Shown: piece after piece, positions 11,276 to 29,058 of the stretch
How positions within the stretch are numbered: position 1 is the stretch's first letter
Layout: the number at the start of each line of letters is the position of its first letter
Assembly (NCBI GenBank): GCA_002729725.1
Contig: PBYS01000019.1
Location: 1 to 64,000 of the forward strand
DNA: 64,000 bases
Source of the DNA: Puniceicoccaceae bacterium
GTDB taxonomy: Bacteria > Verrucomicrobiota > Verrucomicrobiia > Opitutales > Coraliomargaritaceae
Reading direction: 5' to 3'
Position numbers and translations under genes: made by a program
Notes under the pieces: generated by a model
Seen by the model: the letters and a program-made list of their open reading frames with translations, nothing else
Told to the model about the DNA's origin: nothing
Databases searched by the model: none

Positions 11276-12676
11276 ATGGAAGAAGTTGCCCTAAAAGATC
11301 TCGATACCCGTCTACAAAAGCAGATTGAAAATGCACGTAAAGCGGTTGATAAAAACCCCAGCTACGCAGTCGATATTTTGATTAATATTGTGAGCCGTAA
11401 TGTGGCATGCTTAGAAGCTCGAAAGATTTTGCGCCAAGCACAGCAACGTGCGACTAAGGGTAAGACGAAGGGCTTGGGTGGCTTGTTGTCGAAAGTGACG
11501 AGCATTCCATTTTCGATGGGGAGTGAGTCGAAGATCAAGAAGGATCCTAAGAAGGCGATCGATTCTGCGGAGCAGATGCTAAATTCGAACCCTGACAATG
11601 TGGTCGGGCATAAGATTTTGGGAGCTGCCGCCGAGGCCCTGGAGCTCTATTCGACGGCTGTATTTGCTTATGAGTCGGTTCGGAAATTAGAGCCAAATAA
11701 TACCGAGAATATAAAGTCTTTAATGACTGTTCATATCAAAACCGGTAACAGCGAAGAAGCGATTCGTATTGGTGAGGCTGCTTATCGAGCCAACCCTTCC
11801 GATGACGAAGTGCAGACTTTGATTAAAAAAGCCTCGGTTGAACAGACCATGGAAAAGGGCAAGTGGGAGGAAGATAAGAGCTTTCGTGATAAGCTCAAAG
11901 ATGAAGATGAATCTCAAAAGCTGGAGCAGGCAGGGCGTGCTAAGACTGGTGATGCCGCGCTTCATTCTCTGATCGAAGAGGCAAAGAAGGGAGTCGCGGA
12001 GACTCCAGATAACATGAATTTCTATCGTGAGATTGCGGCTAATTACCGTAAGCTTGGCGATTACGACAGCGCCTTGGAGTGGGTCGCAAAGGCTCGCGAG
12101 TTGGAAGCGGGGCGTGCAGACGTTACACTTGAGCGCTTGGTCGGCACATTGAAGGGCGAGAAGATGCAAAAGGCGATCGCCGCAGTTGAAGCTCGTTTAG
12201 AAGCGGATGTGGAGAATGAAGCTGCGAAGGCAGAGCTTGAGAAGCTTAAAGCCGAAGAGCGCGCATTCCGCCGTGAGCAGTGTGAAGATTTGGTCCAGCG
12301 CTACCCGAATGAATATAGCTATCGCTATGAACTGGGTGAACTGTATTTTGAGGATGGTGAAACAGATCTAGCGATTAAGGAGCTTCAGATGGCTCAACGT
12401 AGTCCAAAGGTTCGTGTCGGTGCGCTCATTCTTTTGGGCAAGGCTTATCTGGTTAAGGGCTTCCATGACTTGGCGGCTGAGCAACTCACATTAGCCAAAT
12501 CCGAGATTCCTGGTATGACAGATCAGAAGAAAGATGTGCTTTACGAGCTGGGCTCTGCTTATGAGCAGCAAGGTGATATGGACCGCGCGATGATTGAGTT
12601 TAAGGCGCTCTATGGGGCGGATATCTCTTATCGTGACGTCGCTCAGAAGATTGACGATTTTTATTCCAGCAAGTAG
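11276..12676 (+). CDS. Cytoplasmic TPR-repeat protein
   Basis: 466 residues, no signal peptide or membrane helix. There are TPR-like units near 85-150 (KKAIDSAEQMLNSNPDN, LYSTAVFAYESVRKLEPNN) and 225-270 (YREIAANYRKLGDYDSALEW), a charged coiled-coil stretch (about 275-330), and further TPR units to the C-terminus (YELGELYFEDGETDLAIKEL, YELGSAYEQQGDMDRAMIEF). A basic Lys/Gly-rich segment (RATKGKTKGLGGLL) near 60 is conspicuous. It starts 42 bp after glmM, so it may be co-transcribed. Function is unknown; a scaffold is the only supported inference. Confidence 0.7.
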   Translation: MEEVALKDLDTRLQKQIENARKAVDKNPSYAVDILINIVSRNVACLEARKILRQAQQRATKGKTKGLGGLLSKVTSIPFSMGSESKIKKDPKKAIDSAEQMLNSNPDNVVGHKILGAAAEALELYSTAVFAYESVRKLEPNNTENIKSLMTVHIKTGNSEEAIRIGEAAYRANPSDDEVQTLIKKASVEQTMEKGKWEEDKSFRDKLKDEDESQKLEQAGRAKTGDAALHSLIEEAKKGVAETPDNMNFYREIAANYRKLGDYDSALEWVAKARELEAGRADVTLERLVGTLKGEKMQKAIAAVEARLEADVENEAAKAELEKLKAEERAFRREQCEDLVQRYPNEYSYRYELGELYFEDGETDLAIKELQMAQRSPKVRVGALILLGKAYLVKGFHDLAAEQLTLAKSEIPGMTDQKKDVLYELGSAYEQQGDMDRAMIEFKALYGADISYRDVAQKIDDFYSSK

Positions 12677-13100: not shown

Positions 13101-14150
13101 ATGCTTAACCCCAAGACTAAAGGCCTCTTTGTCGATGTTTCGGAATTTTCGATTTTAGCCGCGAGAACTTCTGGTTATAAGATTCCGATAGTGATTGAAG
13201 AATTGGCGGAGTTTCCTCTGAGTGCGGAGGATAGTTCAGTCGAGATACGTGATTTCTTTGAGCAGTTAGTTGATTTTAAGGGCGGAGGCTACTTCGTTTC
13301 ACGAACTGGGGTTTACCCTGAAGGGCGCTTCGTTCGCTTTTATGAAGCCGAGTCCGCGAATAAGGCTAAGGACTTGAACTTCCTCTCTGGCATCTTGCAG
13401 TCTGAGTTTAATGTAGATCCTGCGGTCAACACCGTTGCGATTTTAAATGCGCGCGATGGTTCTGACTATGATCCGCAAACTAGTCTGAGTAAGCGTCTCG
13501 TGTTTTGTGGCGCCCCTGCGCAAGCCTTTCAAGATGCTCAGGATCGTTTACTAGACTGCGGTATCTACCCTGAGCGTTTAGAGCTCTCCACCGTCACGAC
13601 TTTAGGGGGCGTCAGTGATTATGCGCATTTTAATGAAATCAAGTCTCCCATTCTTTGTTTCGAGCTCACCTCGCAAAGTGCTAATATATTCATCATTAAT
13701 CAAGGTCAGGTGGATGTTGCGCGTCCAGTGCCCTTTGGCTTAGACAGCATTTATCCTTTATTGCAGCGAGAATTGGGCCTTAAAGACGAGACCTCTGCTA
13801 GGAAGCTCTTTTTCTCTAACACTTTTGATTTCGCTGAGATGGGCCCAAAGTTGCTACGACGTTTGACTAAAGAATTACAAGCTTCGACGGGTTTTTACGA
13901 AGTGCAGACGGGCCAGACGATTGAGAAGGTTTTTATCAGTGTGCTGCCGCAAAATTTGGCTTGGGTCTCTAAAACGGTTTCCGATTCGCTTGGCTTGGAC
14001 ATTTTGCAGCCCAATTTAGAAAAATGGCTCGAAGGGCTTAAGGTCACTTTAGGTGAGGGGGTTGAGGTTTCAAACCTCGGGCCGCGTTGGATGGGCTTAT
14101 TTAGTTTGATGGGAGAGTTCCATTTAAGAGAGGAGGGCGAGAGTGAGTAG
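13101..14150 (+). CDS. PilM-like actin-fold ATPase
   Basis: 349 residues from the ATG at 13101 ([20 protein letters not shown]); an upstream in-frame ATG at 13035 adds 22 unlikely residues. The N-terminal [13 protein letters not shown] resembles the first phosphate loop of actin-like PilM/FtsA proteins, and [20 protein letters not shown] near 190-210 resembles the second. In type IV pilus and type II secretion machines, PilM or its GspL-equivalent domain sits under the inner membrane and binds PilN. The next gene overlaps its stop codon. Position and order match Akkermansia Amuc_1101, from memory of that locus. Sequence divergence from classical PilM is high, so the call rests on motif plus context. 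Confidence 0.72.
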
Positions 14151-14802
14151 AAACCAAAAAGAAATCCAGCCATTCTGGCGCCCGAATTTTGTCAATCAGT
14201 CGGAATTGCCCGACATTAAAGTCGTTCGGACTGACTTTATTATTAACTTTGTCGCCATCACCGTGGCGCTGTGTGTGGCCTTTTTTCTCTTACAGCGTGA
14301 ATACCGCTCTTATACTTTAGCTAAGACAATCGAGCAAATGGAACAACAGATTCGTGTTGCTGAAGCGGATGATGCTGAGAACCTTAAGTTGAGTGAGGCG
14401 TTTCGAAAGTCCGCCCAGTATGTCATTGAAGTTGAGCAGTTCTTCGAGTCTCCACTGCTCGTCCATGAGTTGCTTTATGGCCTGTCTCTGATTAAGCCTG
14501 AAGACTTGATTTTTAAATCGGTCGCTTTGAACGAGTCGATTTCAAAAGTAGGCTCTAAGAACGTAGTTGTTTACAATCTTGTGATTAATGGAAGCGCTAA
14601 GAATTTAACGGTTCTAGACGAATTTAAGAATATTTTAGAGGAAGATGAGTTGCTGCAAATCTCGGGCTTCGACCTCGAAATCGATGAAACTCTGCAGGGG
14701 CGTGATGAAAAGACTGGAATTTTCCCGTATCGTCTAGCGGTGAAACTGATGCCTAAGCAAAAGAAGTCTTCGGCCAGTAAAAAAGAAAAGGATGCATCAT
14801 GA
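14143..14802 (+). CDS. PilN-like inner-membrane protein
   Basis: 219 residues. The GTG start overlaps the PilM-like stop and is preceded by one of the few strong ribosome sites here (AGAGGAGGG, 14130-14138). A short cytoplasmic segment is followed by one transmembrane helix (about 28-50, [20 protein letters not shown]), a coiled coil (about 55-85) and an alpha/beta periplasmic domain resembling the ferredoxin-like fold of PilN/PilO. The tail is Lys/Ser-rich. It is expected to pair with the following PilO-like protein to form the alignment complex linking PilM to the secretin. The overlap on both sides indicates translational coupling. Confidence 0.7.
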
Positions 14803-15380
14803 AGTCCGAGAATAAATTGATTCGTATCTTCAAGGATTATCCTTTGGCGGTCGTGTGTTTCGCTGTGATTCTTATGTGTACTGCCGCCATTTTCTTGCGT
14901 GGTGGTACGACGATCGAATTAACCGCTCAAGAAAATGATTTAACGGCACGCATCCGAACCATTGATCAAAACGTTAAGAATGCTAAAGACTTAAAGGAAG
15001 AGGTGAATGAGGTGCAGCGACTCGTTGATGAGATTCAAGCACGGCTCTTTAACCGTAATGAGCGAGCCATTAATATTAACTTCTTCTATGCGCTAGAGAA
15101 TCGGCTGAATGTTCGTATTTCAAATATCGCCCAAATGCCGGCGGGAAATCCTATCTATGAAAAAGGAGGGCCACGAGCACTGAAATTACATTCAACCATA
15201 GGTTACAGCATGTCGCTGAATGGTACTTTTGAGGATATTTTAGAATTTATGTATGAACTTCACCGCGTGGATCGTTTGATTCGAGTCGCTGATTTTCAAG
15301 TGGCCGATGCGAGTCGCAATGGGACTCAAAATACTCTGGATGCACGCCTACGAGTGATCGTTTTGGCAGAAAATGAATAA
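14799..15380 (+). CDS. PilO-like inner-membrane protein
   Basis: 193 residues, coupled by an ATGA overlap to the PilN-like gene. It has a short N-terminus, one transmembrane helix (about 15-33, LAVVCFAVILMCTAAIFL), a coiled coil (about 40-75, VNEVQRLVDEIQARLF) and a periplasmic alpha/beta domain (about 85-190). This is the layout of PilO, the partner of PilN. The Akkermansia protein Amuc_1100 comes from the equivalent position of a similar cluster (recall, not a comparison). Confidence 0.7.
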   Translation: MKSENKLIRIFKDYPLAVVCFAVILMCTAAIFLRGGTTIELTAQENDLTARIRTIDQNVKNAKDLKEEVNEVQRLVDEIQARLFNRNERAININFFYALENRLNVRISNIAQMPAGNPIYEKGGPRALKLHSTIGYSMSLNGTFEDILEFMYELHRVDRLIRVADFQVADASRNGTQNTLDARLRVIVLAENE

Positions 15381-15392
15381 TACTCTGATCCC

Positions 15393-15971
15393 ATGAAACT
15401 ATCTATAAATACTCTGTCGACTACGCTACTCGCGCTTCTGCTGACGCAGGGTCTACATGCTAAATCTGAGATTAAACTTACAGGGCGCAAGGATTTGGTG
15501 TTGAGCGTGGAGAGTCGTACGATGGTTTTAAATGTGGGGAAAACTCATTTGTCTGAGAAGGACGAAGCCTTTTATAACGTGGCTGCAAATGCGGACAGCC
15601 CCTTTGTGTTTGAGCAGCCTATCGTGCCGATTGAACGTGGAGCGGATGCGGTGCAGGAGCCAGTTGAAGAGCTTGTCATCAATTATGATGATGCTTCTGT
15701 GCTACGTGTGGTAGCGAAAAACTTTTCCCAACAGGTGCGCGGCACTCTTGCGCGAGGGAGTCAGAGTTTTCTTCAATTGACCGGTGGTAATTTGGTCCCA
15801 CAGGGAACCCGTTTTCCCGTTAGTTTGCCGCAGGCTCAAGCGCAGGCTTTTACGGTGACTATAGCCGAAATCAATAGTGATTCGTACACCCTGAAACTAG
15901 GAGCCGCGACTCAAGTCGTTTACATCAATGCCAGTAGTTCAGGTGCAGGAGCGATCAAAATGGATCCCTAG
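15393..15971 (+). CDS. Small exported protein in the PilP position
   Basis: 192 residues. There is a signal peptide (MKLSINTLSTTLLALLLTQG, cleavage near LHA-KS) with no lipobox cysteine, then a beta-rich domain with the conserved-looking segment NLVPQGTRFPVSLPQAQA and an alternating-strand end. It sits between the PilO-like and secretin genes, where PilP is found in classical clusters. PilP is an inner-membrane lipoprotein that bridges to the secretin; this protein lacks the lipid anchor, so it is a positional analogue at best. It also resembles the short beta domains (GspC-HR/SAF-like) that dock on secretin N0 domains. Function is inferred from context only. Confidence 0.55.
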   Translation: MKLSINTLSTTLLALLLTQGLHAKSEIKLTGRKDLVLSVESRTMVLNVGKTHLSEKDEAFYNVAANADSPFVFEQPIVPIERGADAVQEPVEELVINYDDASVLRVVAKNFSQQVRGTLARGSQSFLQLTGGNLVPQGTRFPVSLPQAQAQAFTVTIAEINSDSYTLKLGAATQVVYINASSSGAGAIKMDP

Positions 15972-16053
15972 TTCAGTCGGCATTCTTCCATCTATTTCTT
16001 AATTTTAAATTTATACTCACCACATTCTTCGAACAGTCTGGCCCAAACGTCCT

Positions 16054-17973
16054 ATGAAAAAGCACACACTCTACACCTTATGGCTTCTCGCTCCGATTGC
16101 ACTCTGTGCACAGGCAGAAGAGGAGGCTATGGTTGAAATTGATCTATCTGATGTCATTGTGGTGGAAGATACATCCGATCAAGACAGTACTTCTGAGGCG
16201 GCCCCCGTCGCCGTTCCGGCCCCGGTTACAGTTTCGGTCCCGGTTACAGTCCCAGCACCTGTGGCTGAAGAGGCGGAGGTGGTTGAAATCCCAGAAGATC
16301 CCATAGCAGGAGCGAGTATTGATGTGGAGACTCCTATTATACCAGAGGTGACTGAGAGCTTGCCGACCGATACCGAAATCGTGTTGGAGATTCCTGGCCA
16401 GGAGGCAAGTGCCCCGGGAGAAGCTTCTATGTCGAGCGAAGAAACCATATCGGTTGATTTTCCAGATGAGGATGTGCGCACGATCTTGCGTAATGTGGCG
16501 GATCTATTTGAGCTCAATCTTGTGATTCCAGATAGTTTAATCGGGCGCACTTCAATCAAGTTACGCAACATTACTTGGCGTCAGGCTTTCGAGGTGGTGC
16601 TTGAGCCGCTCGGGTATACCTATGTCGAGGATCGTAACATTATTCGTATCAAGAGCCTAGCGGAGTTGACTATGGAGCCTGTCGATACGCACGTCTTTGT
16701 CGCCAATTATGCACGCGCTGAAGAGCTGCGCAGCTCGATTGAACCTCTAATTGATAATGCCGCTGGTGGACGCATTCAGGTAGATATTCGCAGTAATGCA
16801 CTCGTGATTACAGAGCGTCCTTCGCGCATGGGAAAAATTCAAGAGATTATCGAGCGCCTCGACCGGGCTACCGATCAAGTGATGATCGAATCGAAATTTA
16901 TCGAAGTAACCAACACAGACAGTAAGAACCTTGGGGTCAATTGGGCTTCATTGAGTGGTTACAGTGCCTCAGCGGGACCTTTTCAGCGTGAATGGTCACG
17001 CTCTCGTGCCAGTAGTTCAGGTACTACAGGCAGTGGTGGCGTGACGTCTAGTACCAGTACAGATACCTCTAGTGGCTCGATTGATGGGTTTACGACGTCT
17101 ACGGTGGATACTAACGAAAGTGTAGGATCCACTTTTTCATCGCTTTCAGATCTCGCTTCAACTGCTTCTACCAGTCGTGTGGATACGGCCTTATTCTCAG
17201 CGGATGAGTTTGAGATCATTCTTAGCGCGTTGAAGACCCAGGATGATATCAAGTTGGTTTCTAATCCAACTGTAGTGACTTTGAATAATACGCAGGCAAA
17301 GATTGCGATTGGTGAGCGTTATCCCATCCCACAATACACTTTTAATTCGGAGACGGGACAGCGCCAACTCGATGATATTGAGTATGAGGATATTGGGATT
17401 AACTTGGATGTGACGCCACAAGTGAACAGTGCTGGTTTTATCAACCTTAAGATTATTCCTGAAGTATCGAGCACAGATCGTTTCGCGAGTATTGAAAATA
17501 CAGATATTCCGATTATTGAAAGCCGTCGTACAGAGACAACTATCATGATCAAGGATGGCTATACACTCGCGATTGGTGGCCTCGTTGAAGATTCTATTAC
17601 CAAGAGAGATACGAAGGTGCCTGTGTTGGGCGACTTACCTGGTATCGGTCGTTTATTTAGTAGTGAGTCCGATGAGACGGCGCAACGTAACTTAATTATA
17701 TTCATTACGGCTAGGACACTCAATCCCGATGGCAGTACTTATCGCGATATTATCGATCCACGGGTAATCGATCGTATGGGAATCGTTCCAAGTGAACTAC
17801 CAGGCTATCAAGTTTCTGCTGAGGAGCGTGCTTTGATTAAGCAACTTGAAGACTATCGGATTGAGCGTGATCTTAACGAGAGTATTGAGCAGCGGCAAGC
17901 TGCCATAAAGAGCATTGAGTATAAGAAAATGCAGGAGGAAGAGAGCGATTCTTCTTCGAACAACGGCCGATAA
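16054..17973 (+). CDS. Secretin (PilQ/GspD family outer-membrane channel)
   Basis: 639 residues. It has a signal peptide (MKKHTLYTLWLLAPIALCAQ); a Pro/Val/Glu-rich linker (about 20-125); an STN/N0 domain (about 130-207, VDFPDEDVRTILRNVADLFE); an N1-type domain (about 210-285, VDIRSNALVITERPSRMGK); a Ser/Thr/Gly-rich insert (about 318-350); and the C-terminal secretin barrel (about 375-560), with LVSNPTVVTLNNTQAKI, GINLDVTPQVNSAGFINLKI and the signature VPVLGDLPGIGRLFSSES. The C-terminal tail beyond 575 is charged. It forms the outer-membrane gate of the PilMNO-type machine encoded just upstream. The length between the N1 module and barrel is within the family range. Confidence 0.93.
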   Translation: MKKHTLYTLWLLAPIALCAQAEEEAMVEIDLSDVIVVEDTSDQDSTSEAAPVAVPAPVTVSVPVTVPAPVAEEAEVVEIPEDPIAGASIDVETPIIPEVTESLPTDTEIVLEIPGQEASAPGEASMSSEETISVDFPDEDVRTILRNVADLFELNLVIPDSLIGRTSIKLRNITWRQAFEVVLEPLGYTYVEDRNIIRIKSLAELTMEPVDTHVFVANYARAEELRSSIEPLIDNAAGGRIQVDIRSNALVITERPSRMGKIQEIIERLDRATDQVMIESKFIEVTNTDSKNLGVNWASLSGYSASAGPFQREWSRSRASSSGTTGSGGVTSSTSTDTSSGSIDGFTTSTVDTNESVGSTFSSLSDLASTASTSRVDTALFSADEFEIILSALKTQDDIKLVSNPTVVTLNNTQAKIAIGERYPIPQYTFNSETGQRQLDDIEYEDIGINLDVTPQVNSAGFINLKIIPEVSSTDRFASIENTDIPIIESRRTETTIMIKDGYTLAIGGLVEDSITKRDTKVPVLGDLPGIGRLFSSESDETAQRNLIIFITARTLNPDGSTYRDIIDPRVIDRMGIVPSELPGYQVSAEERALIKQLEDYRIERDLNESIEQRQAAIKSIEYKKMQEEESDSSSNNGR

Positions 17974-18017
17974 TACGGAGCTCAGTGGCTACACAACATT
18001 ATAACCAAAGACTTCTT

Positions 18018-21000
18018 ATGAAATCAACGAGAGTGAATTTTTTCAAAAAAACTCAGCGACTGATTTTGCTATCTTTAGCAATGCTCCCGTTTGCTTCACT
18101 GGACGCAGCTGAAATATCGGCGGGCAATGCATCCGTACTTTATGTGAGCGATGCAGGAGATCTGTATGCTTGGGGCTCCAATAGCTCTGGGCAACTCGGT
18201 GACGGCACTCAAGTGGATCGCGATCTACCTGTGGCCTCAGCTGAGTCCGGGCCATGGCTTCAAGTGGCCACTAGCTTGGTGCCTACCAGCTCTGGTTCGG
18301 ATGGTGGACATAGTCTAGCGATCAAGGCTGATGGCACTCTATGGACTTGGGGGAATAACGATTATGGGCAACTCGGACTGGGCGATACGACGTCACGCCT
18401 GGTGCCTACGCAAGTAGGTTCGGCAACAAACTGGACCCAGGTCGAAGCGGGGAGCGCATTTTCTATGGCCTTAAATGCTGATGGCGAGATTTGGCTCTGG
18501 GGAAATAACAATCATGATCAATTGGGCAATGCGGTGTCTGCGCAGGTTCAAACTACGCCGGTGCGTTTGCAGGACAAAGAAGGCAATAGCCCTAATGATG
18601 ACAAATGGATCGCGATCGCCGCAGGCGCCGATTACGCACTCGCGATTCATGCATGGGGGAATCCCAATTCGGGCTATGGTCAGATCTATGCATGGGGCCG
18701 CAATTCTCTCTATCAGTTGGGGCTTGGACATACGTCCGCTGTATCGGCTCCCACTCGTGTCGGAAGTGGAAGCACGTGGAAGAAAGTAGAAGCTGGTTCG
18801 ACCAGTTCTTTCGCGATCGATTCGTATTTCAAACTATTTGCATGGGGCCAGGGGGCCTTTGGCGGACTTGGAACTGGAGCAAGTTCGGGCACATCGATTC
18901 AAAACATAGCTACGCCCACAGCGGTGGTTAGCAGTTTTGGCAACATGACTTTTCAGGATGTTTCTGCTGGGACCTCGCATACTTTGGCACTGTCGACTAA
19001 TGGTTTCTTATTTTTTGCGGGGCAAAATGCTTCGGGACAGTCGGGGATCTTGAATGGGCAGAGCTTGTATAATATTTTTCAGTCTGTTCGTGCGGAAGTC
19101 AGCGACATTGCCGCGGGACGAGATTATTCCGCGATTGAGCTCAATGACGGCAGCCTCTTAGCGGCGGGCAGTAATTCCAATGGGCAACTCGGCCTAGGTG
19201 GAAATGACAGTTCTTCCACCTTTGTTTCCAGTGCTTTGGGCGCGGTGGATTTGGTTGTGGAGTCCGTAGAAATCCTGTCTGATGTGAGCAATATCAGCGG
19301 ATCTTCCGACTTGGATATCGAGATTGTTGTTCAAAACAACGGTACGGGGACGATCGAACTTGCGGATGTTCAGGCACTCCAATTGGACATGGCTTTGAGC
19401 CCCGCGACAAGTTTCGGAGCCACCGGGCAGGTTCAATTCACTGAAGGTCTCAGCTTTTCGGTGCCCGCTGGGCAGGCGCAAGAGATCGCGGGCGCTAGCA
19501 CTTTAACGATTGCGCTCTCTGTGACGTTACCAGCTTCGATTGATGTTGGTAGCTACAATTTGCTCGTTGATTTGGATAGTAACGATCTGATTGAAGAATT
19601 CGACGAAAGCAATAATAGTGGTTTCCTGGCTGATGCCGCGAATTTCACATTGGATCTCCTACCGTCAGCCTTGAGCCTGCAAGTACCGCAGCCGAGTTAT
19701 GCGGTCGGCGATAGCATTACCCTCGACTACACAATCCGCAATGAGGGGACGGGCGATTTAGATAAAGATAAGAATACACCTTTCCAATTAAAGTTCCTGC
19801 TCACGCCGGACTATGATGATCTGAGCTCGAGCACTGTGGTTGAGTTGTCGCCTAGCAACGGTGATTCGGCATTGGCTCTGGACCTCGACCTTTCCGCGGG
19901 GGCCAGTTACTCTGATACTTTGAGTTTCACTCTGCCTACCGAGGTGGATGCGGTTTCTTATTATCTCGTCATCGTGCTGGATGACACTGAGGTGCTTAAT
20001 GAGGTGGATGAATCCAATAACACCCTGATTAGTGCATCCAAGCTAGTCTCAGTGGCAGAGCTTTCATTGGCTGAAGGTCTCGATTACAGTGGCACAGCTT
20101 TCACCAAATCTGGTTCGGGTAGCTGGTATGGCTTCGATTACAATGGTGCTGGCGATGGGGATGCTGCGTATAGTCCACGCTTGTCGGCTGGAAATGAAGC
20201 GAGCTTTCGCACTTCTCTGAGTGCCGCATCGGTCATCCGTTTTGATTGGCGCTCCGCGACTTCGAGTGATGCGAATCAGCTGTCGTTGAATGCCGGCACG
20301 ACCGAACTATCAATCAGTGGAGAAACCAGCTGGGAGTCGGTTGAAGTTGCGGTGCCTGCCAATACTAGTATTATTTGGACTTATACGGCGGGCGCGGATC
20401 AGGCTGATAGTCGTGTCTATGTCGATAATTTAACGGTTGAGCCGATGACTCGTCCCGATTTGGTGCTGGCTGGATTAGCGCTGACCGATGGTGGTTCAAA
20501 CACTCTCGACTCAGTATCTCTAGTCGCTGGACAAGGTTCTCTTTCCTATAACTTGGAAATTACGAATCAAGGCACAGACCTGATTAATGACCTGCCCTTT
20601 AATACCTCACTCTATTTGTCTCGTGATTCGAATTTTGACCCCTCTGAGGATTATGAAATTCAAACGATCGAAAACGATCGCGAGGTTGCTTCGGGGAACA
20701 GTCTCACTATTAGTGCATCGGTGCAGTTCGGCGCGACTGGGATACCACTGGCCCTAAGTGGAGATTTTTACCTAATTGCTGTCGCGGATATCGATGATGA
20801 TGTAACGAATGAGACGGGCGTTGCCGGTTTTATTGATGGTGCAGGAATTGATGTTCCCAAGGATAATATTTATGTGAGTGATACTGCAGTGGTGAATATT
20901 CAGCAACTACCGGACTTATCGGTAACTGCGGTTAACATTGATGGTCAGCCCAGTGATAATGTATTATTCACCGGTTTTTCGGTCGATTATGTGCTGCATA

Positions 21001-24000
21001 ATATAGGCCTTGGAGATGCCCAAGGACTAATTGAGGTGGCCGTGATTCTTTCCAGTGATACAATTTATGATGCCGGCGATGTTGTTGTTCAAAAATATCC
21101 TATATTTAATGGTTCTATAGCGGCGGGTGATTCCAGCCAAAAGACCTACAATCTACTTTCAATTCCCGATGGCTTGCCAGTTGGTGATTTCCGTTACTTA
21201 GGAATTGCGATCGATACTGCCAATGCCTTTAGCGAAACTGACGAAGACAACAATTACGCCTTCTTCTCGAATCCGGTGTATGCATTTGGCTACACGACCC
21301 TAGAGGATGCTTTGGACCTTACGGATTCTGGAATTACTTACACTGTGACGACGGATTACAATGCACCCTTTAGCTCGGGCTTTCCTTTTTTTGGTCAAGA
21401 TGAAGCGTCCTATGATGATGAAGATGCTGCACGGAGTGCATTACTTGCCGACGGTGAAAAGTCTTACTTTGAAATCGAGGTTGATGTGCCTGTTGGTGAG
21501 GATGCAATTGTTAGCTTTGCATGGAAAGTGAGTAGCGAGAATGATGGCGCAGGGAAGAGCGATGACTTTATACTTTATCTCGATGGTGAAGAAAAAGCGT
21601 CAATTTCAGGTGAACAAGATTGGACAGAGGCATTTTTACTACTTCCAGGTCGGGCGACTTCTTACAGCTTACGCTGGAGTTACGAGAAGGACGCATCGAT
21701 TTCTTCGGGAAGTGATTTCGCTTGGGTCGATCAGGTTCAGGTCGAGCTCCTTGAGTATCCAGACTTTAGGCCTGTTGGCGTGTCGCTGACTGATGAAAGC
21801 GGTAGTGAAGTTGATTCTGGCACTTATCGAATCGCACAAGACTCAATTTCGCTTAATTATAATTTTGAAAATATCGGGAAAGCCTATGCAGGACCAGCCT
21901 CGTTAGAGTTGGAGTTTTACTTGTCTGAAGATGATGAGTTGGACTCAGAGGATATCTCTCTAACTCTGCTCACATCGGCTCCACTAGGAATGATTGCGCT
22001 TGATAGTGGCGCTTCAGTTTCTGGCACGGCTAATTTGAGCACGACAGGGCTGGCTGCCGGGCACTACTACTTGATCGCGGCGGCGGATCCGCAAGATCTA
22101 GTTGTGGAGCGTGACGAAAGCCTCAGCTTGGGGGATGCTCCGGAAGGGAATAATGTATTTATATCCAGCTCGCGGCTCGTCACACTGGTGGACGAGCCCG
22201 ACTTAGTCGTTAGCTATGTAGAAGGGGATCTGCCTAACGGAGGCTTATTACTCTTGGATGAGGCGCTTGGAGAAATCTCTCTATTGGTTGAAAATCAAGG
22301 TGGAGCGGCTGTCACGGCCAGCCGGTCGATTGCCTTTGTATTGCAGGATGCGCTCGGCTTAGCGGATAACAGTATCTTGCGTGAGTTTAGCAGTTCCGAA
22401 GTCTTGAGTGGTGCCGCGGGCACCTCTCCAGATTATACTTTCAGTCGCACCTTCGATGCGGTTGGTGAATCTGCGCTTACAGGCTTGCGCTACTACCTGC
22501 TCGGTTTTGTGGATTCTCAAGATCAGATTGCTGAGAGTGATGAAACAAATAACCTGACGGAACTCGCGGAGGAGAGCGCAGCTTACATTTTCGCTGATAT
22601 GGCTCTATGGCAGGCCTTGAGTGTCGATCTGCTCAATCCGGCGGAAACTCCCACTGGATTCCAGCCTTCGGAGAGCATTAGTCTGGTTAATGATGCGACG
22701 GCACCTTTTGAGTCAGATCTTCCCTTTGTTGGGGTAGAGGACAGCAGTGTCGATTCTGCTGCTGTTGGGCGCAGTATCGTGCTGGGGGACGGTGAGTCCG
22801 CTGCTTTTTCTATCGAATTAGACTTGGACGCGAATGCAGCTCTCGTCTTTCAATGGAAGACCGACGACTTGAGTGCCACTGAGGGGGGCGAAGATCTCTA
22901 TGGAGATTTTGAATTTAGCTTAGATGCGACTCCTGTTGATTCGATTGATTCATTAGAAGTTGAAAGCGATTGGCAGCAAGAAATCGTGCAGCTCGATGCA
23001 GGGGCACACACTTTAACTTGGCGCTTCACGCGGGACACCGAGTTACCAGAGTCTGCTTTCGATGCATTTGCCTATGTCGATTCTATTCGCTTCTTGCCTG
23101 ATCTAGAAATTGAACTGGACGATGCTAGCGTCACTGATCTCAGTGGTTTGGCTTTAGCAGGACAAATACTGTCTCCCAAGGCAGAGTTTAAGTTTGAAGC
23201 GGTCGTGAGTAATCGCGGTTTGGGCGCACTCCTAGATGATGCCGAATATAGCATTGAGGCGAGATTGTCGGTGGATGACGTGTGGGGCAATCTGGATGAC
23301 TATATCCTCATGATTAACACCGCCGCTGAACTGCCCATTTTAGATGCGTACTCCGACTCAACGGCCATCAATTTCACAACTACGATTCCTGAGGAGACAC
23401 CTCTGGGCGATTATCACTTGTTACTACGTGTGGATACGGGAGATGAAGTGTTGGAAGTGAATGAAGATAATAACGATGCAGTTTCTGCGCTACAATTGAT
23501 CTCAATCGATGCAATTACACTTGAAGATGGTTTGGATATTGAGGCAATTGATGATCCGAGTGATCCTGAGGACTCTGTTGGTTTCGCTGCCGGCTATTTC
23601 AAATCAGTCTTTCCGCTCATTTCGGAGTCTAACGTTCAACAGACAGTCGATTTGACTTGGGCGGATTCTCCGGACATTGAAGTCGTTGATTCGAGTCCAA
23701 AATGGTTTGCCACTGGTGGAGTGAATGGTGCCAGCTCGGATGGGGATGCGATTAAGACCAGCGAACTGGAGGCGGGCACTGCGGCGTCCTTGCTCTTCCG
23801 ATTGGACGAACCGCGCTTAGTCCGTTTCAAGGTGCAGCCGAATACTGGTGGATCCTCTAATTATTTGTTCTTTGGTGAAAATGGAAACGCATTACGTCCT
23901 GAGGGCGGACTAGTCTCACGTATTTCGGGAAATTCTGAAGATTGGGAGACACGCTACTATGTCGCACCCGCTGAGGCACCGATTGGTTTTACTTACGTGC

Positions 24001-27000
24001 AAGGAAGCACAGCAGAGGCCGAGGAGTTTGCTTACGTGGACGAGTTAATTATCGGTGAGCCACTCGAACAGCCAGACTATGTGATTGATTCACTTCAGTA
24101 TGATGCGGGAGAGTATGTGCTGCAAAGAGATCGACTTTTCGTCACGATTACGGGCAATAATCGTGGCATCGATTACGCTGAACCATTACCTGATGACTTT
24201 AGAGTTCGAGTTTGGCTCTCATCGGATGCAACGAAGTCAGACGACGACTATGAGATCGGCGTCTTGGAGGAGTTCCAGGAACTTGCTGGTGGCACTCGTT
24301 TTGCCTATCAGGCAAGCCTGATATTGCCCGAAGACTTGCCGGAGGGGACTTATCATTTGATTGCACGTATTGATGCGGACAATGCGATTGCTGAGTTTGC
24401 GGTGGATGCATCCGCCACTGATTTTGCCGATGCAATTATTCCTGAGAATGATGCCGAAGCGTTTACGGCCAACGATAATAATTTCTTAATCTCGGACGAG
24501 GATGATATCTTTATCGATCGACGTGCTGACCTGCGAGTAGTGCCTTCTGAAGATTCAGTTTACAATGAACTCCTCCTGGCAGGTCCTGCGCAGCAGAGCT
24601 CTGAGGATGTGGTCGATTTCTTTATCATCGAACCTACCACCGAAGAGGGCCCGAGTGAGTTGTTGATTAAATTTGACCTTATAAACGAGGGACTTTCGGG
24701 TGTGAGTGCTGCTGAAAGTGATGATTTTACTGTTGATGTTTATGCTGCGACCTCACGCGACGAAGCACCTAATGCAGAGCGTTTGATCTCATCCTTTACG
24801 ATAGAAAACGGCATCGCAGCAGGCACGCGCTATACCTTCGAGGAGACAACTGCGATTCCTGATAATATTGATGCGGGGGCCTTCTACTATATTAACGTAG
24901 TGGTTGACGGCTCTGGCAGCATCGATGAGTCTGATGAAGAAGATAACAGCACATATTCAACCAATGGTATCGTCTTTGTTAGCGATGTCTCATTGGAAGT
25001 CGCTTTGAACGATGAGGAATATTGGCCTGGAGACGCACCACGTTATACTTGGGATAAGAGTTTCCAAGTACCGACCCAGACCAATTCGACTCGCCAAGCG
25101 CCTTTCTTCGGCACGACAGCAGTGTTTGGACAAGATAATTCGGATTCGGGAGTGCGTGCTTCGGCACAGACAGGCCCCGTTCCAGTGGGCGGCACGTCTT
25201 GGCTACAGCAAACGGTCTCGGTTACAGATGGCTCTGAGATACAAGTATCTTTTATGTGGAAAGTATCTTCACAGTTTGAGGTAACTGAGGACGGGGTATT
25301 CGAAGATATTCTTTTGTTTAGTGTTCGTTATGAAGGTGATGAAGACTTTACGGAGATCGCTTATATTTCTGGCGAGCAAGATTGGGCGGAGCTCAAATTA
25401 ACGATTTCGACTCCAGGCACACATACATTGCGCTGGTCCTATATCGAAAACGGTGACGGTATCAGAGGGGGGGCAGATGCTGGCTGGATTGATGATTACT
25501 CAGAGTCTTCTTATGACTTCGTGCCTAGTTTTGTGAGTCCGGCCTCGGCCGGGCCCTATGAGGCGGGAGATGTTCTTGATTTACCAGTATTTGTTTGGAA
25601 TTTAGGCGCACTGACGATTCCGGATACTGGTATTGAGACCACAGTTCGCTTGGCGCGTGAGACCGGAGATACGACTAACTTGGATTGGTCGGTCGAGAAC
25701 GCCTCAGACGTGAGTCTGCATGCCTTGGCATATAATGCTCTATTATTGGAGAATTTGGTCTATCTGCGTGGGCATATCGATGAGTTGGTCTTGCCTGAGA
25801 GTCTGTCTGTTGCAGATTTAGATGCGTTGATGGATGCGGCTTTCCAGCAGCTATTAGCCTCAGAGGCGGATGAGATTGAGCCTGAATTAACTGAGGTCGA
25901 AATCGAAGCTCTACTGGATGTCATTGAGACTGATGGACAAAATTGGAGGGATTATACAGATACTCAATTGGCGCTACTTTTAGGTAGCGATCAAACCAGT
26001 GCTGAAAAAGCATCACGAAAGCGCTTCCTACCGGTTCGCACTTATGTGGGTGCCAATGAGATTAGTATTCCAAATCTGCTGAGTGAATCTGGTGATTATT
26101 ATCTGGGCGTTTGGGCGAATTATACCCATGAACTTTCTGAAAGTAATTTGACTAATAATTTGCTCTATTCGGCTGCAGCTGCGGTTCAATTAGAGGTCGC
26201 CTACACAATACCCGAGGTCTTGGAGCAAGCGGGAGCTGGAGATCATAATTTGGACCTTCTTGATGCTTCCGAGGATTGGACATTGGGTGGCCAAGGTCGT
26301 TGGTATCCAGTGGGAGATGCTGATGAGGTCTTCGATCCAGATGCTGAAAACGATACCTCGCTGCGTTCACCTAGTGAAGGAATGGTGCAAGATGGCGAAG
26401 CTTCGATTAGCGCTCTGGTTGAAGGTCCGAAGCTGATACGTTTTAGTTGGCGTGGCGACTTTGGGAGCTCAACTGATGTCGCTTCGTTCTATGTGAATGA
26501 TGTGCCTGTGACGCGAGAATATAACGGCGCAGGGGCTGGCTCGATGACTCTAAGCTCCGAGGATGACGGTAGTTGGGTTGAAGAGCAGTATTTGCTCCCT
26601 GAAGGTCTTAATGAGATTCGTTGGACTTTCAGCCGAGTGGATGATGCGCAAAGCCAAGGGGTCGTTTACCTCGATAATCTGCGCTTTGAGGAGGTGACTG
26701 ACCGTGTCGATCTCGCAATCTCAAGTGTTGATTATGCGGGCGGTACTTACGCACTTGAACGGGATGCCTTAGCTCTGACGGTGAATGTATTGAACCGTGG
26801 TAGTATGCCTAGCGGTTTTGCTTATAACGACCTAGACTTGGAGGTTCGACTTGGCCTCAGTCAAGATTTCGATGAAGCGAGCCAAATTATTGGCAATCTC
26901 GCGGTTGTTGATGTCTTGGACGAAGGGCAGCGCTTGATTTTCCAAGGGGATATTGATTTGCCCGTGAATCTTGAAGAGGGCAGTTATTATCTCTTGGCCA

Positions 27001-29003
27001 GAGTCAAGTCCTTGGACCCTGACTTCGAGGAGTTTACTTATGACACTGGGACCCAACTGCTTGAGAATAATGACTATGCCTCTAGTCTACAAGATCTGAG
27101 TATTCAACATTTGCCTCAGTTGGTGGTAAGAGCGACTGATGTAGAGAATGAAAAGGTTTTCTATCCAAAGGAATCTATTCGTTTCGATTGGGAGCTACAG
27201 AACATTGGACTTGGCGATATCCCTTATGGCACAGAGCTGACTCAGACCATTGAGTTGTGGAGTGTCGGTGCTGATGTCGTGGACCCTAGCCTTGAGGATG
27301 CCGAGAAAATCTTAGATCTTGGCTCTGTTACAGAAGTTACGGCTTTGCCAGGACGTTTGACGGCTGACAATACCTCACAATCCACCATCGCTTATAAGCA
27401 GTTATATCGCTTGCCTTCGCAGGCCGAACTTCTTGCGGCTCTCGGTGAAGTGGATGGCGGCTTGGAAGACCTAAATGCTGCTGTCATTAGTAGTTTGGCT
27501 GCGCTTGAAGAATATCAGTTCTTCCTTGTTCTGATACGTGACCAGTCGATTGATCAATCGAGTGATTTGAATGTTACGGCGATGATGAGTGAGTCATTTA
27601 GAGTATCCGCGTTCCCCTATGATACAGGCCTGGATGCATCATCGGATGTCGATGCATCTTTAGATTACGTATTATGGGATAGTTTTCAGGATGGTCGAAT
27701 TCCATGGGGGGCGATTGCTCCTTCTTCTGAAAGCTTAGATACGCTCGGAGGTGGCGCTTATGAGCAACTTTACTATTACGCCTTTAATTTGCCATTGCTG
27801 ACGAATCTATCTACTGCGAGTCCTGATCTGAGTCGCGTCGATAATGTGACTAGCTATAACCAAACTCGCACTGTTGTAGATAGCGGTACTAGTTACCGAG
27901 CTATTACGTTTGATATTGTGAGAGGTGCGTCAGACCTTGTTTATCGTGTGCAGCGAGACAACGGATCTGGTTGGGAGACTTGGATTGATATTCAACCACC
28001 CTACTTGGATACATTATATGGTCTTTCTGCAGGTTATGTGGGATCGCGCACCTTAAGTGATGTGAATGCCTCTGATGGTATTGATAGTTTACTTGAGTTG
28101 GATGAGGTCATCGTTAGTGCAGTGGATAATAATTACACCGCTACGGTAACTGTGCGGGCGGACGATAATAGCAGTAATATGCGTGTGGTGGTTATTCCGC
28201 TTGAGGAGGAACCGCTTGAACAGTTTGTAATCGATTACTTTACAGGTAATGACGAATATAACTACCAGTTGATGGAGCCCCTTCAAGACTATGATAGTGA
28301 CGGATCCTCCAATATTGTAGAGTTACAGCTCGGGCGAGATCCAATTTCGGATGCGGATGCAAATTCGACCTCAGCTTTAGAAAACTTCGTCGCTGAGGCA
28401 TTCGCAGTCGACTATGGCCTCTTTGATCCGATACCAGCTGATTTGGCGCCTGAAGATGATTACGATGGCGACGGAATGTCTAACCTCGCCGAATTACAAT
28501 TGGGGTCGGATCCTACTGACATCAGCGATATCGCAACGACGGATGCCAGCGATTCTGCCTTGGCTGAGGCATTTGCTGCGGAAGGCATCTTGGTGGGAGA
28601 AAGCTATGACGGTACGATCGTCGAGGTCGCCGATTTGGCTGCCGATGCCGATTTTGACGGCGACGGTGAGTCGAATCTTTATGAGTGGGCACTCGGCGGC
28701 GATATGATGGCTGATGGGGCTCAAGTTCCTGCCTTGCAGACTCAGATGGTCGGCACCGATTTCATTGTAACCTACGTTCGCTTGATTGCATCTGAGCAAC
28801 CGTCCAACCTTGATATTTCAGTCGAATGTGCGCTGCTGTTGACTGGGCCTTGGTCAGATGTTTCGAGTGTAGGTAGTTCGGAAGGTCTTAATTTGGATCA
28901 AAGCGGGCTGCCTTCAGCGCAATACGAGCGCATTGATTTAACAATCGACACCACAAGCATCGATTGTCCTTTCTTCCGTGTTTCAGTGACGCAGGTTCCT
29001 TAG
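18018..29003 (+). CDS. Giant exported RCC1/CARDB multidomain surface protein
   Basis: 3,661 residues from the ATG at 18018; a GTG at 17985, only 12 bp after the secretin stop, is in frame but precedes the signal peptide (KKTQRLILLSLAMLPFASLD). Residues about 30-410 hold RCC1 repeats (GDLYAWGSNSSGQLGDG, GTLWTWGNNDYGQLGLG, GQIYAWGRNSLYQLGLG), expected to form a beta-propeller. From about 410 to 3200 come around eleven CARDB-like modules ending in acidic turns (EFDESNN, EVDESNN, ETDEDNN, ESDETNN, EVNEDNN), alternating with six sandwich modules that carry SISGEQDW-type strands and end in a YVDN/WVDQ turn. Near 3424-3560 are three DxDGD loops (YDSDGSSNIVEL, YDGDGMSNLAEL, FDGDGESNLYEW). No sortase, PEP-CTERM or lipobox anchor was seen. 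It is probably the adhesin or substrate of the upstream secretin machine (inference from context). Confidence 0.85.
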   Translation: MKSTRVNFFKKTQRLILLSLAMLPFASLDAAEISAGNASVLYVSDAGDLYAWGSNSSGQLGDGTQVDRDLPVASAESGPWLQVATSLVPTSSGSDGGHSLAIKADGTLWTWGNNDYGQLGLGDTTSRLVPTQVGSATNWTQVEAGSAFSMALNADGEIWLWGNNNHDQLGNAVSAQVQTTPVRLQDKEGNSPNDDKWIAIAAGADYALAIHAWGNPNSGYGQIYAWGRNSLYQLGLGHTSAVSAPTRVGSGSTWKKVEAGSTSSFAIDSYFKLFAWGQGAFGGLGTGASSGTSIQNIATPTAVVSSFGNMTFQDVSAGTSHTLALSTNGFLFFAGQNASGQSGILNGQSLYNIFQSVRAEVSDIAAGRDYSAIELNDGSLLAAGSNSNGQLGLGGNDSSSTFVSSALGAVDLVVESVEILSDVSNISGSSDLDIEIVVQNNGTGTIELADVQALQLDMALSPATSFGATGQVQFTEGLSFSVPAGQAQEIAGASTLTIALSVTLPASIDVGSYNLLVDLDSNDLIEEFDESNNSGFLADAANFTLDLLPSALSLQVPQPSYAVGDSITLDYTIRNEGTGDLDKDKNTPFQLKFLLTPDYDDLSSSTVVELSPSNGDSALALDLDLSAGASYSDTLSFTLPTEVDAVSYYLVIVLDDTEVLNEVDESNNTLISASKLVSVAELSLAEGLDYSGTAFTKSGSGSWYGFDYNGAGDGDAAYSPRLSAGNEASFRTSLSAASVIRFDWRSATSSDANQLSLNAGTTELSISGETSWESVEVAVPANTSIIWTYTAGADQADSRVYVDNLTVEPMTRPDLVLAGLALTDGGSNTLDSVSLVAGQGSLSYNLEITNQGTDLINDLPFNTSLYLSRDSNFDPSEDYEIQTIENDREVASGNSLTISASVQFGATGIPLALSGDFYLIAVADIDDDVTNETGVAGFIDGAGIDVPKDNIYVSDTAVVNIQQLPDLSVTAVNIDGQPSDNVLFTGFSVDYVLHNIGLGDAQGLIEVAVILSSDTIYDAGDVVVQKYPIFNGSIAAGDSSQKTYNLLSIPDGLPVGDFRYLGIAIDTANAFSETDEDNNYAFFSNPVYAFGYTTLEDALDLTDSGITYTVTTDYNAPFSSGFPFFGQDEASYDDEDAARSALLADGEKSYFEIEVDVPVGEDAIVSFAWKVSSENDGAGKSDDFILYLDGEEKASISGEQDWTEAFLLLPGRATSYSLRWSYEKDASISSGSDFAWVDQVQVELLEYPDFRPVGVSLTDESGSEVDSGTYRIAQDSISLNYNFENIGKAYAGPASLELEFYLSEDDELDSEDISLTLLTSAPLGMIALDSGASVSGTANLSTTGLAAGHYYLIAAADPQDLVVERDESLSLGDAPEGNNVFISSSRLVTLVDEPDLVVSYVEGDLPNGGLLLLDEALGEISLLVENQGGAAVTASRSIAFVLQDALGLADNSILREFSSSEVLSGAAGTSPDYTFSRTFDAVGESALTGLRYYLLGFVDSQDQIAESDETNNLTELAEESAAYIFADMALWQALSVDLLNPAETPTGFQPSESISLVNDATAPFESDLPFVGVEDSSVDSAAVGRSIVLGDGESAAFSIELDLDANAALVFQWKTDDLSATEGGEDLYGDFEFSLDATPVDSIDSLEVESDWQQEIVQLDAGAHTLTWRFTRDTELPESAFDAFAYVDSIRFLPDLEIELDDASVTDLSGLALAGQILSPKAEFKFEAVVSNRGLGALLDDAEYSIEARLSVDDVWGNLDDYILMINTAAELPILDAYSDSTAINFTTTIPEETPLGDYHLLLRVDTGDEVLEVNEDNNDAVSALQLISIDAITLEDGLDIEAIDDPSDPEDSVGFAAGYFKSVFPLISESNVQQTVDLTWADSPDIEVVDSSPKWFATGGVNGASSDGDAIKTSELEAGTAASLLFRLDEPRLVRFKVQPNTGGSSNYLFFGENGNALRPEGGLVSRISGNSEDWETRYYVAPAEAPIGFTYVQGSTAEAEEFAYVDELIIGEPLEQPDYVIDSLQYDAGEYVLQRDRLFVTITGNNRGIDYAEPLPDDFRVRVWLSSDATKSDDDYEIGVLEEFQELAGGTRFAYQASLILPEDLPEGTYHLIARIDADNAIAEFAVDASATDFADAIIPENDAEAFTANDNNFLISDEDDIFIDRRADLRVVPSEDSVYNELLLAGPAQQSSEDVVDFFIIEPTTEEGPSELLIKFDLINEGLSGVSAAESDDFTVDVYAATSRDEAPNAERLISSFTIENGIAAGTRYTFEETTAIPDNIDAGAFYYINVVVDGSGSIDESDEEDNSTYSTNGIVFVSDVSLEVALNDEEYWPGDAPRYTWDKSFQVPTQTNSTRQAPFFGTTAVFGQDNSDSGVRASAQTGPVPVGGTSWLQQTVSVTDGSEIQVSFMWKVSSQFEVTEDGVFEDILLFSVRYEGDEDFTEIAYISGEQDWAELKLTISTPGTHTLRWSYIENGDGIRGGADAGWIDDYSESSYDFVPSFVSPASAGPYEAGDVLDLPVFVWNLGALTIPDTGIETTVRLARETGDTTNLDWSVENASDVSLHALAYNALLLENLVYLRGHIDELVLPESLSVADLDALMDAAFQQLLASEADEIEPELTEVEIEALLDVIETDGQNWRDYTDTQLALLLGSDQTSAEKASRKRFLPVRTYVGANEISIPNLLSESGDYYLGVWANYTHELSESNLTNNLLYSAAAAVQLEVAYTIPEVLEQAGAGDHNLDLLDASEDWTLGGQGRWYPVGDADEVFDPDAENDTSLRSPSEGMVQDGEASISALVEGPKLIRFSWRGDFGSSTDVASFYVNDVPVTREYNGAGAGSMTLSSEDDGSWVEEQYLLPEGLNEIRWTFSRVDDAQSQGVVYLDNLRFEEVTDRVDLAISSVDYAGGTYALERDALALTVNVLNRGSMPSGFAYNDLDLEVRLGLSQDFDEASQIIGNLAVVDVLDEGQRLIFQGDIDLPVNLEEGSYYLLARVKSLDPDFEEFTYDTGTQLLENNDYASSLQDLSIQHLPQLVVRATDVENEKVFYPKESIRFDWELQNIGLGDIPYGTELTQTIELWSVGADVVDPSLEDAEKILDLGSVTEVTALPGRLTADNTSQSTIAYKQLYRLPSQAELLAALGEVDGGLEDLNAAVISSLAALEEYQFFLVLIRDQSIDQSSDLNVTAMMSESFRVSAFPYDTGLDASSDVDASLDYVLWDSFQDGRIPWGAIAPSSESLDTLGGGAYEQLYYYAFNLPLLTNLSTASPDLSRVDNVTSYNQTRTVVDSGTSYRAITFDIVRGASDLVYRVQRDNGSGWETWIDIQPPYLDTLYGLSAGYVGSRTLSDVNASDGIDSLLELDEVIVSAVDNNYTATVTVRADDNSSNMRVVVIPLEEEPLEQFVIDYFTGNDEYNYQLMEPLQDYDSDGSSNIVELQLGRDPISDADANSTSALENFVAEAFAVDYGLFDPIPADLAPEDDYDGDGMSNLAELQLGSDPTDISDIATTDASDSALAEAFAAEGILVGESYDGTIVEVADLAADADFDGDGESNLYEWALGGDMMADGAQVPALQTQMVGTDFIVTYVRLIASEQPSNLDISVECALLLTGPWSDVSSVGSSEGLNLDQSGLPSAQYERIDLTIDTTSIDCPFFRVSVTQVP

Positions 29004-29021: not shown

Positions 29022-29058
29022 AAGCGCGACTCCCATGCGAGAGTCGCGCTTTTTTTTA
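29022..29058 (+). terminator. Intrinsic terminator after the giant gene
   Basis: A perfect 11-bp stem (AAGCGCGACTC / GAGTCGCGCTT, 8-nt loop) is followed by a run of eight T. It closes the PilM-to-giant-gene transcript and reaches the 3' end of the convergent methyltransferase gene. Confidence 0.88.

Follow-up and report, generated by a model that had tools for sequence, protein, structure and literature searches.

A pilMNOPQ-type secretin operon ending in a giant RCC1/CARDB protein gene, and its predicted place in a three-locus type IV filament machine of Opitutales

Gene organization of the operon

Six genes, all on the plus strand, occupy positions 13101-29003 of the window, that is, of the whole 64,000-nucleotide stretch of DNA that was analyzed, which comes from a marine, Coraliomargarita-like bacterium. 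The features of the locus are as follows.

13101-14150, plus strand: PilM-like gene, 349 aa
14143-14802, plus strand: PilN-like gene with a GTG start, 219 aa; GGAGG upstream; 8 bp overlap with the PilM-like gene
14799-15380, plus strand: PilO-like gene, 193 aa; ATGA overlap (4 bp)
15393-15971, plus strand: gene for a PilP-like exported protein, 192 aa; preceded by a 12 bp gap
16054-17973, plus strand: PilQ-type secretin gene, 639 aa; preceded by an 82 bp gap
17985 (GTG) or 18018 (ATG) to 29003, plus strand: giant exported protein gene, 3,672 or 3,661 aa
20103-26717, plus strand: six unnamed beta-sandwich domains of the giant protein (iterated HMM, AlphaFold2 model)
29022-29051, plus strand: intrinsic-terminator-like hairpin at the end of the operon, with an 11-bp stem, an 8-base loop and a T-run

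A previous sequence-only reading of this DNA had described six same-direction genes with overlaps or short gaps, and this gene set was found in full. The 82 bp ahead of the secretin gene represent the sole long gap of the operon. The in-frame GTG of the giant gene, which that reading placed 12 bp after the secretin stop, lies 11 bp past it, with GGAG 4 nucleotides upstream, and the hairpin at 29022, described as a single strong terminator, is the strongest terminator-like site of the region in our terminator scan. No plus-strand promoter-like sites were detected between positions 14317 and 20931 in a promoter scan, and no terminator-like site was detected by scanning the gap between the secretin and giant genes; since both kinds of site occur at chance level across the region, their absence between these two genes is weak evidence. 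The GC content of the giant gene (48.7%) is similar to that of the secretin gene (47.7%) and of the window (51.2%). About 420 bp upstream of the operon, a gene for a TPR protein without a signal peptide (11276-12676) is kept at the same spot within the genus, and it is not found at more distant cassettes. The nearest named relative of the locus belongs to Coraliomargarita sp. SDUM461004, the PilM-like proteins being 88% identical.

The PilM to PilQ components

The PilM-like protein itself yielded no direct Pfam match and no meaningful PDB sequence match. By hhalign, its residues 94-276 were linked (95.5%) to the PilM of a class-level relative (locus L110), and this intermediate matches Pfam PilM_2 and the PDB PilM structures 3jc8 and 2ych. 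Its identity is thus based on this profile link together with its position ahead of PilN and PilO. Where the class-level PilM keeps the DxGxxxxK phosphate-loop motif as LDLGTRQIK, the window protein (13101-14150) reads VDVSEFSIL, and judged from its sequence it may have lost ATP binding. The PilN-like protein has one N-terminal membrane helix and matches no Pfam family above cut-off; its tentative assignment follows from operon position and from a profile similarity, weak at 51%, to the protein in the PilN position of the class-level clusters, and from these only. The PilO-like protein matches Pfam PF04350 (PilO) with 30.1 bits at a cut-off of 22.

The fourth gene encodes what had been described simply as a small exported protein. 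Export is indeed indicated by a signal peptide, but the resemblance to PilP had been missed. The signal peptide is followed by a linker with an NPF/DSPF-type motif and by a beta domain of the HR type, and most orthologues have a PF or NPF-type motif ahead of this domain. No Pfam family above cut-off and no meaningful direct PDB sequence match were obtained, and the protein was therefore modelled with AlphaFold2 from 48 orthologues. In the C-terminal domain of the model (pLDDT about 96), VIA-align detected the HR domain of GspC (3oss, Z 6.1), PilP (2y4y, Z 5.9), the HR domain of PulC (6hcg, Z 5.6), the PilP of 3jc8 (Z 5.5) and the PilP structures 2ivw and 4av2 (Z 4.1-4.4), the best of these GspC-HR and PilP alignments covering about 63 residues with an rmsd near 3 A. 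The GspC and PilP HR domains are tied in the top rows with parts of long pyruvate carboxylases, and because the latter score alike, the assignment rests on fold, operon position and NPF-type motif together. On this combined basis, the modelled protein is PilP-like, with a PilP/GspC-HR fold and no PDZ domain. The top Foldseek rows for the same model were fatty-acid-binding proteins with a TM of about 0.2, which were judged to be chance matches.

The secretin consists of an N0/STN domain, one N1-type domain and the secretin core. It scores 161 bits on the Pfam Secretin model, 250 on TIGR02515 (PilQ, cut-off 284) and 241 on TIGR02517 (GspD, cut-off 351), which makes it a secretin of the PilQ/GspD kind that characterizes the type IV filament superfamily while it remains below both subfamily cut-offs. 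With PilO identified by Pfam, PilM by the profile link, PilP by fold and the secretin by its domains, the operon represents a complete pilMNOPQ set, in agreement with the PilMNO-secretin set proposed before. A prepilin motif or a pseudopilin was not found within the window.

The first five genes had also been likened to the Akkermansia Amuc_1098-1102 region. Both are verrucomicrobial PilM/secretin operons with similar components, each also encoding two small membrane proteins, but we consider it exceedingly improbable that the window operon is this pilus locus with an extra gene. All models for Amuc_1098, Amuc_1099, Amuc_1100 and Amuc_1101 match a set on another contig of the same genome (G000:C118; 437, 26, 92 and 329 bits, respectively), whereas the window secretin reaches 120 bits on the Amuc_1098 model (cut-off 750) and scores higher on the PilQ and GspD models. 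The operon was therefore rejected as the Amuc_1098-1102 equivalent and belongs to a separate family.

Co-occurrence with an ATPase and a PilC at two other loci

We examined a class sample of 286 genomes, 52 of which belong to the order of the window (Opitutales). The cassette is present in 35 of these 52 genomes (33 by a relative of the secretin and 2 more, G084 and G164, by PilM). Relatives of a PilB-type ATPase (C82) with at least 58% identity occur in exactly these 35 genomes and in 0 of the 17 cassette-negative ones, and relatives of an orphan PilC (C101) at the same identity threshold show the same distribution (35/35 and 0/17). The co-occurrence in these draft genomes has a Fisher p-value of 5e-14, the related genomes not being independent samples, and cassette-negative members were found inside genera that also have positives (g28, g43 and g36). 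Both genes are unlinked to the cassette and lie at two separate loci; neither featured in the sequence-only reading. Among the 37 nearest genomes the ATPase is present in 11 of the 15 cassette-positive ones. The near-complete genome G017 is an exception: its cassette is accompanied by a matching PilC-class gene, whereas this ATPase is absent.

The orphan ATPase scores best as PilB, above GspE, and carries an MshEN domain, although the MshEN match lacks RLG motifs. The orphan PilC is nearer to PilC than to GspF models, the two scores being close. Directly before the ATPase gene lie two response regulators with degenerate sigma-54-activator domains (L053:5622-10609, on G000:C82); regulators also flank the orphan PilC in L096 and L098 and occur in the class-level clusters. 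In relatives outside the order, one cluster contains genes for PilC, a response regulator, a pilin, PilM, PilN, PilO, a 151-aa protein, a secretin and minor pilins, and these class-level clusters with PilC, pilins, PilMNO and secretin identify the type of machine. The perfect co-occurrence with the unlinked ATPase and PilC indicates that the cassette is part of a type IV filament machine whose genes are distributed over three loci. Its extension ATPase and PilC, components characteristic of the type IV filament superfamily, have identical phyletic patterns. We infer from these sequence data that the cassette, the ATPase and the orphan PilC work together.

The genome has four secretin genes: that of the window, that of the Amuc_1098-type set (C118), that of a type II secretion cluster (C117) and one on C79. 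The last is part of a single 1,269-aa frame in which a secretin domain is fused to the membrane and ATPase domains of an ABC exporter (L052:8517-12323), and in G003:C120 a secretin match likewise lies within a 1,301-aa frame. A motor cluster of the order PilB-PilT-PilB-PilC is located on C2. Another unlinked ATPase (C115, 567 aa), considered as an alternative motor, was dropped because only 6 relatives have it.

Among known systems, the type IVa pilus machine shares with the window machine the pilMNOPQ order, the secretin, the PilP fold, a PilB-type ATPase and PilC, and pilins are carried in the clusters of the class-level relatives. It differs in that the window PilM is too divergent for Pfam and has no phosphate-loop motif, that the ATPase and PilC are unlinked here, and that the giant gene is the last of the operon. 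MSHA pili, which use an MshE-type ATPase, have a large putative adhesin, MshQ (PMC7096442), and thus resemble the window system in having an MshEN-domain ATPase and such an adhesin; however, the ATPase is best classified as PilB and the secretin scores 150 bits on the MshL model, below the cut-off of 250. MSHA systems are found almost exclusively in a single locus and type IVa pili usually in several (PMC6668835), so that the three loci of the window machine fit a type IVa pilus better. For Verrucomicrobia, a literature search on type IV pili in combination with a secretin and PilM retrieved no relevant paper.

The giant protein and its coupling to secretin operons

The giant protein consists of a signal peptide, an RCC1 propeller (about residues 96-398; Pfam WD40_RLD, 324 bits), seven CARDB repeats (Pfam), the six unnamed beta-sandwich domains, calcium-type loops and a C-terminal domain. 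Its earlier description as a modular exported protein with RCC1, CARDB and calcium-type loops is borne out by Pfam and by three D-x-D-x-D-G loops near residues 3424-3545; a TSP3_bac match is weak. The protein is acidic (621 Asp+Glu versus 146 Lys+Arg) and has 2 Cys, and relatives of it are present in L035, L037 and L040. The copies of the unnamed domain were delimited by an iterated HMM at residues 696-816, 1117-1251, 1563-1697, 1889-2022, 2362-2506 and 2757-2900. Its AlphaFold2 model (pLDDT 84) is a jelly-roll that best matches the C-terminal Ig-like domain of VesC (Z 14.4), followed by MAM domains (Z about 12) and by CBM61, CBM16 and a porphyran-binding CBM (Z 10-11). According to the model the domain is of the MAM/CBM-type fold, a shared fold alone being no proof of sugar binding, and the giant is probably a surface-exposed sugar-binding protein. 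The combination of a propeller, a CARDB Ig-like stalk, six MAM/CBM-fold domains and calcium loops would suit an adhesin. Passage to the periplasm by Sec is supported by the predicted signal peptide. A literature search retrieved no paper on bacterial proteins that combine RCC1 and CARDB.

The propeller and the calcium-type loops had invited a comparison with PilY1. Like the PilY1/PilC1 tip adhesins, the giant is large, exported and modular, has a beta-propeller and calcium-type loops, and is encoded with pilus genes. Kinship is nonetheless not supported: a Pfam scan of the whole giant, which listed RCC1 and CARDB, gave no match to the PilY1 or Neisseria PilC family, and RCC1 is another propeller family. 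The propeller of PilY1 is C-terminal and that of the giant N-terminal, and the giant is about three times longer and linked to a secretin rather than to minor pilins.

To compare gene order across relatives, we used 58 related cassettes that were fetched by PilM and had at least 1.3 kb behind the secretin gene. A giant was counted when an exported gene encoded at least 1,000 aa or ran off the contig end after at least 400 aa. Such a gene directly follows the secretin gene in 27 of the 58 cassettes, compared to 6 of 580 other (control) genes, with gaps of -4 to 153 bp, and 14 of these 27 giants are of the RCC1 type. The proposed coupling of the PilMNO-secretin set to a giant therefore recurs, in the family of the window and in several sister families, and giant-bearing cassettes are placed in several deep clades of the PilM tree. 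On this tree, which does not separate gain from loss, the presence of the giant changes about 11 times when a remnant and a frame-broken copy are counted as present. The giants at this spot are of three unrelated types, namely RCC1-propeller/CARDB/MAM-CBM-like proteins (1,300-2,900 aa in the relatives), BNR/YCF48-propeller proteins (L074 and L075) and, in other relatives, arrays of Big_7 Ig domains; they are thus interchangeable behind the secretin. Three RCC1/CARDB giants (2,194, 2,616 and 2,929 aa) stand in tandem behind one secretin in L118:1861-18510 and L040 (G031:C33). The remaining 31 cassettes have no intact adjacent giant. They include a frame-broken copy in L077 and, in G017, an in-frame remnant of 214 aa (L036:12407-13051) that is reduced to the signal peptide, RCC1 repeats and C-terminal end of a giant, with nothing left of the part in between. 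They also include the cassette of G007, a genome of the same genus in which the flanking genes are shared with the window. The machine therefore does not need the giant, which is optional, and the earlier designation of the machine as dedicated was too strong.

That the giant is merely co-transcribed, having repeatedly landed behind the secretin gene of an ordinary twitching or DNA-uptake pilus while using another export route, is a reading to which we assign a low probability. It would agree with the half of the cassettes that are devoid of a giant, and with the distribution of RCC1 proteins, which are common in the class (an RCC1 protein in 132 of 286 genomes, a relative of the secretin in only 54), also outside the order in genomes that lack the cassette, and which in some genomes, such as G035 and G108, are encoded far from it. 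The proposal that giants found mostly away from these clusters would speak against the coupling thus has two answers, because class-wide the RCC1 proteins are mostly elsewhere, whereas in the family and its sister families they lie behind the secretin. Of the near relatives, 9 of the 15 with the cassette and 1 of the 22 without it have RCC1 proteins, and in the order sample the corresponding counts are 21 of 35 and 3 of 17. Against mere co-transcription stand the excess over the 1% control level, the three unrelated giant types at one spot, and the recurrence of this arrangement with a second family of secretins. In the window's own genome, the Amuc_1098-type secretin is followed by 1,856-aa and 1,197-aa exported ORFs with PPC repeats (L050:3370-15467, on G000:C118). 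In 5 of 8 relatives, too, this secretin is followed by large exported ORFs of 1,330-1,717 aa, one of which is cut off at 1,418 aa; five of these loci had been picked partly because the start of a long ORF had already been seen there, and an initial look without such selection gave 5 of 11. The ORFs in L217, L218, L219, L220 and L223 comprise 1,715, 1,591, 1,717, 1,330 and 1,418 aa, and the gap to the secretin gene is usually 29-143 bp. This parallel makes an accidental placement less likely.

The machine could also act as an exporter like a type II secretion system, in which a short pseudopilus, instead of a long pilus, would drive the giant in folded form across the secretin, for release or for retention on the cell surface. 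Both systems have a secretin and an HR-domain clamp protein. The best structural match of the unnamed domain is to VesC, a member of a protease family exported by type II secretion, and in the homologue VesB a type II secretion signal resides in the Ig-fold (PMC12369372). No PilT specific to the cassette was seen, and the cargo varies freely among species, as in secretion. However, the ATPase and PilC are nearer to PilB and PilC than to GspE and GspF (narrowly so for PilC versus GspF), the genes are arranged as pilMNOPQ, a PDZ domain is missing from the PilP-like protein, the secretin is below the GspD cut-off, and pseudopilins, which are absent locally, are encoded with a separate type II secretion cluster on C117. 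We therefore regard such an exporter as rather doubtful.

The reading that we prefer, at slightly better than even odds (about 0.55), combines the operon, a three-locus type IV filament machine and an accessory giant as surface or tip adhesin. The operon would provide the PilM-N-O-P-Q alignment complex and the outer-membrane secretin for a type IV filament machine, the third of this bacterium next to the Amuc_1098-type pilus set and the type II secretion system. The unlinked PilB-type ATPase would be its extension motor and the unlinked orphan PilC its platform, as suggested by their perfect co-occurrence. As an accessory client, the giant would enter the periplasm by its Sec signal, and we infer that it exits by way of this secretin on a filament to which it would remain attached, the pilins being encoded elsewhere. 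With its N-terminal beta-propeller it would then act as an adhesin at the surface or tip that binds calcium and polysaccharides. In type IVa pili, PilY1 together with minor pilins primes assembly and forms a plug and the tip (PMC7541494). By analogy, the giant is best read as a surface or tip adhesin that is optional and swappable, has a role like that of PilY1 or MshQ, and is unrelated in sequence to PilY1.

More tentatively, and at well below even odds, two kinds of secretin operon in Opitutales may end in a giant exchangeable adhesin that takes the place of PilY1, is exported through the co-transcribed secretin and either makes up the tip of the filament or caps it. If so, swapping the last gene of a secretin operon would change what the pilus binds, and widespread, little-studied bacteria would build pili with very large exchangeable sugar-binding proteins. 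The cargo would be named by the secretin operon itself, which would provide a genetic handle on the surface delivery of giant proteins in Verrucomicrobiota, and a three-locus machine of alignment complex, ATPase and PilC would be predicted that is invisible to single-locus annotation.
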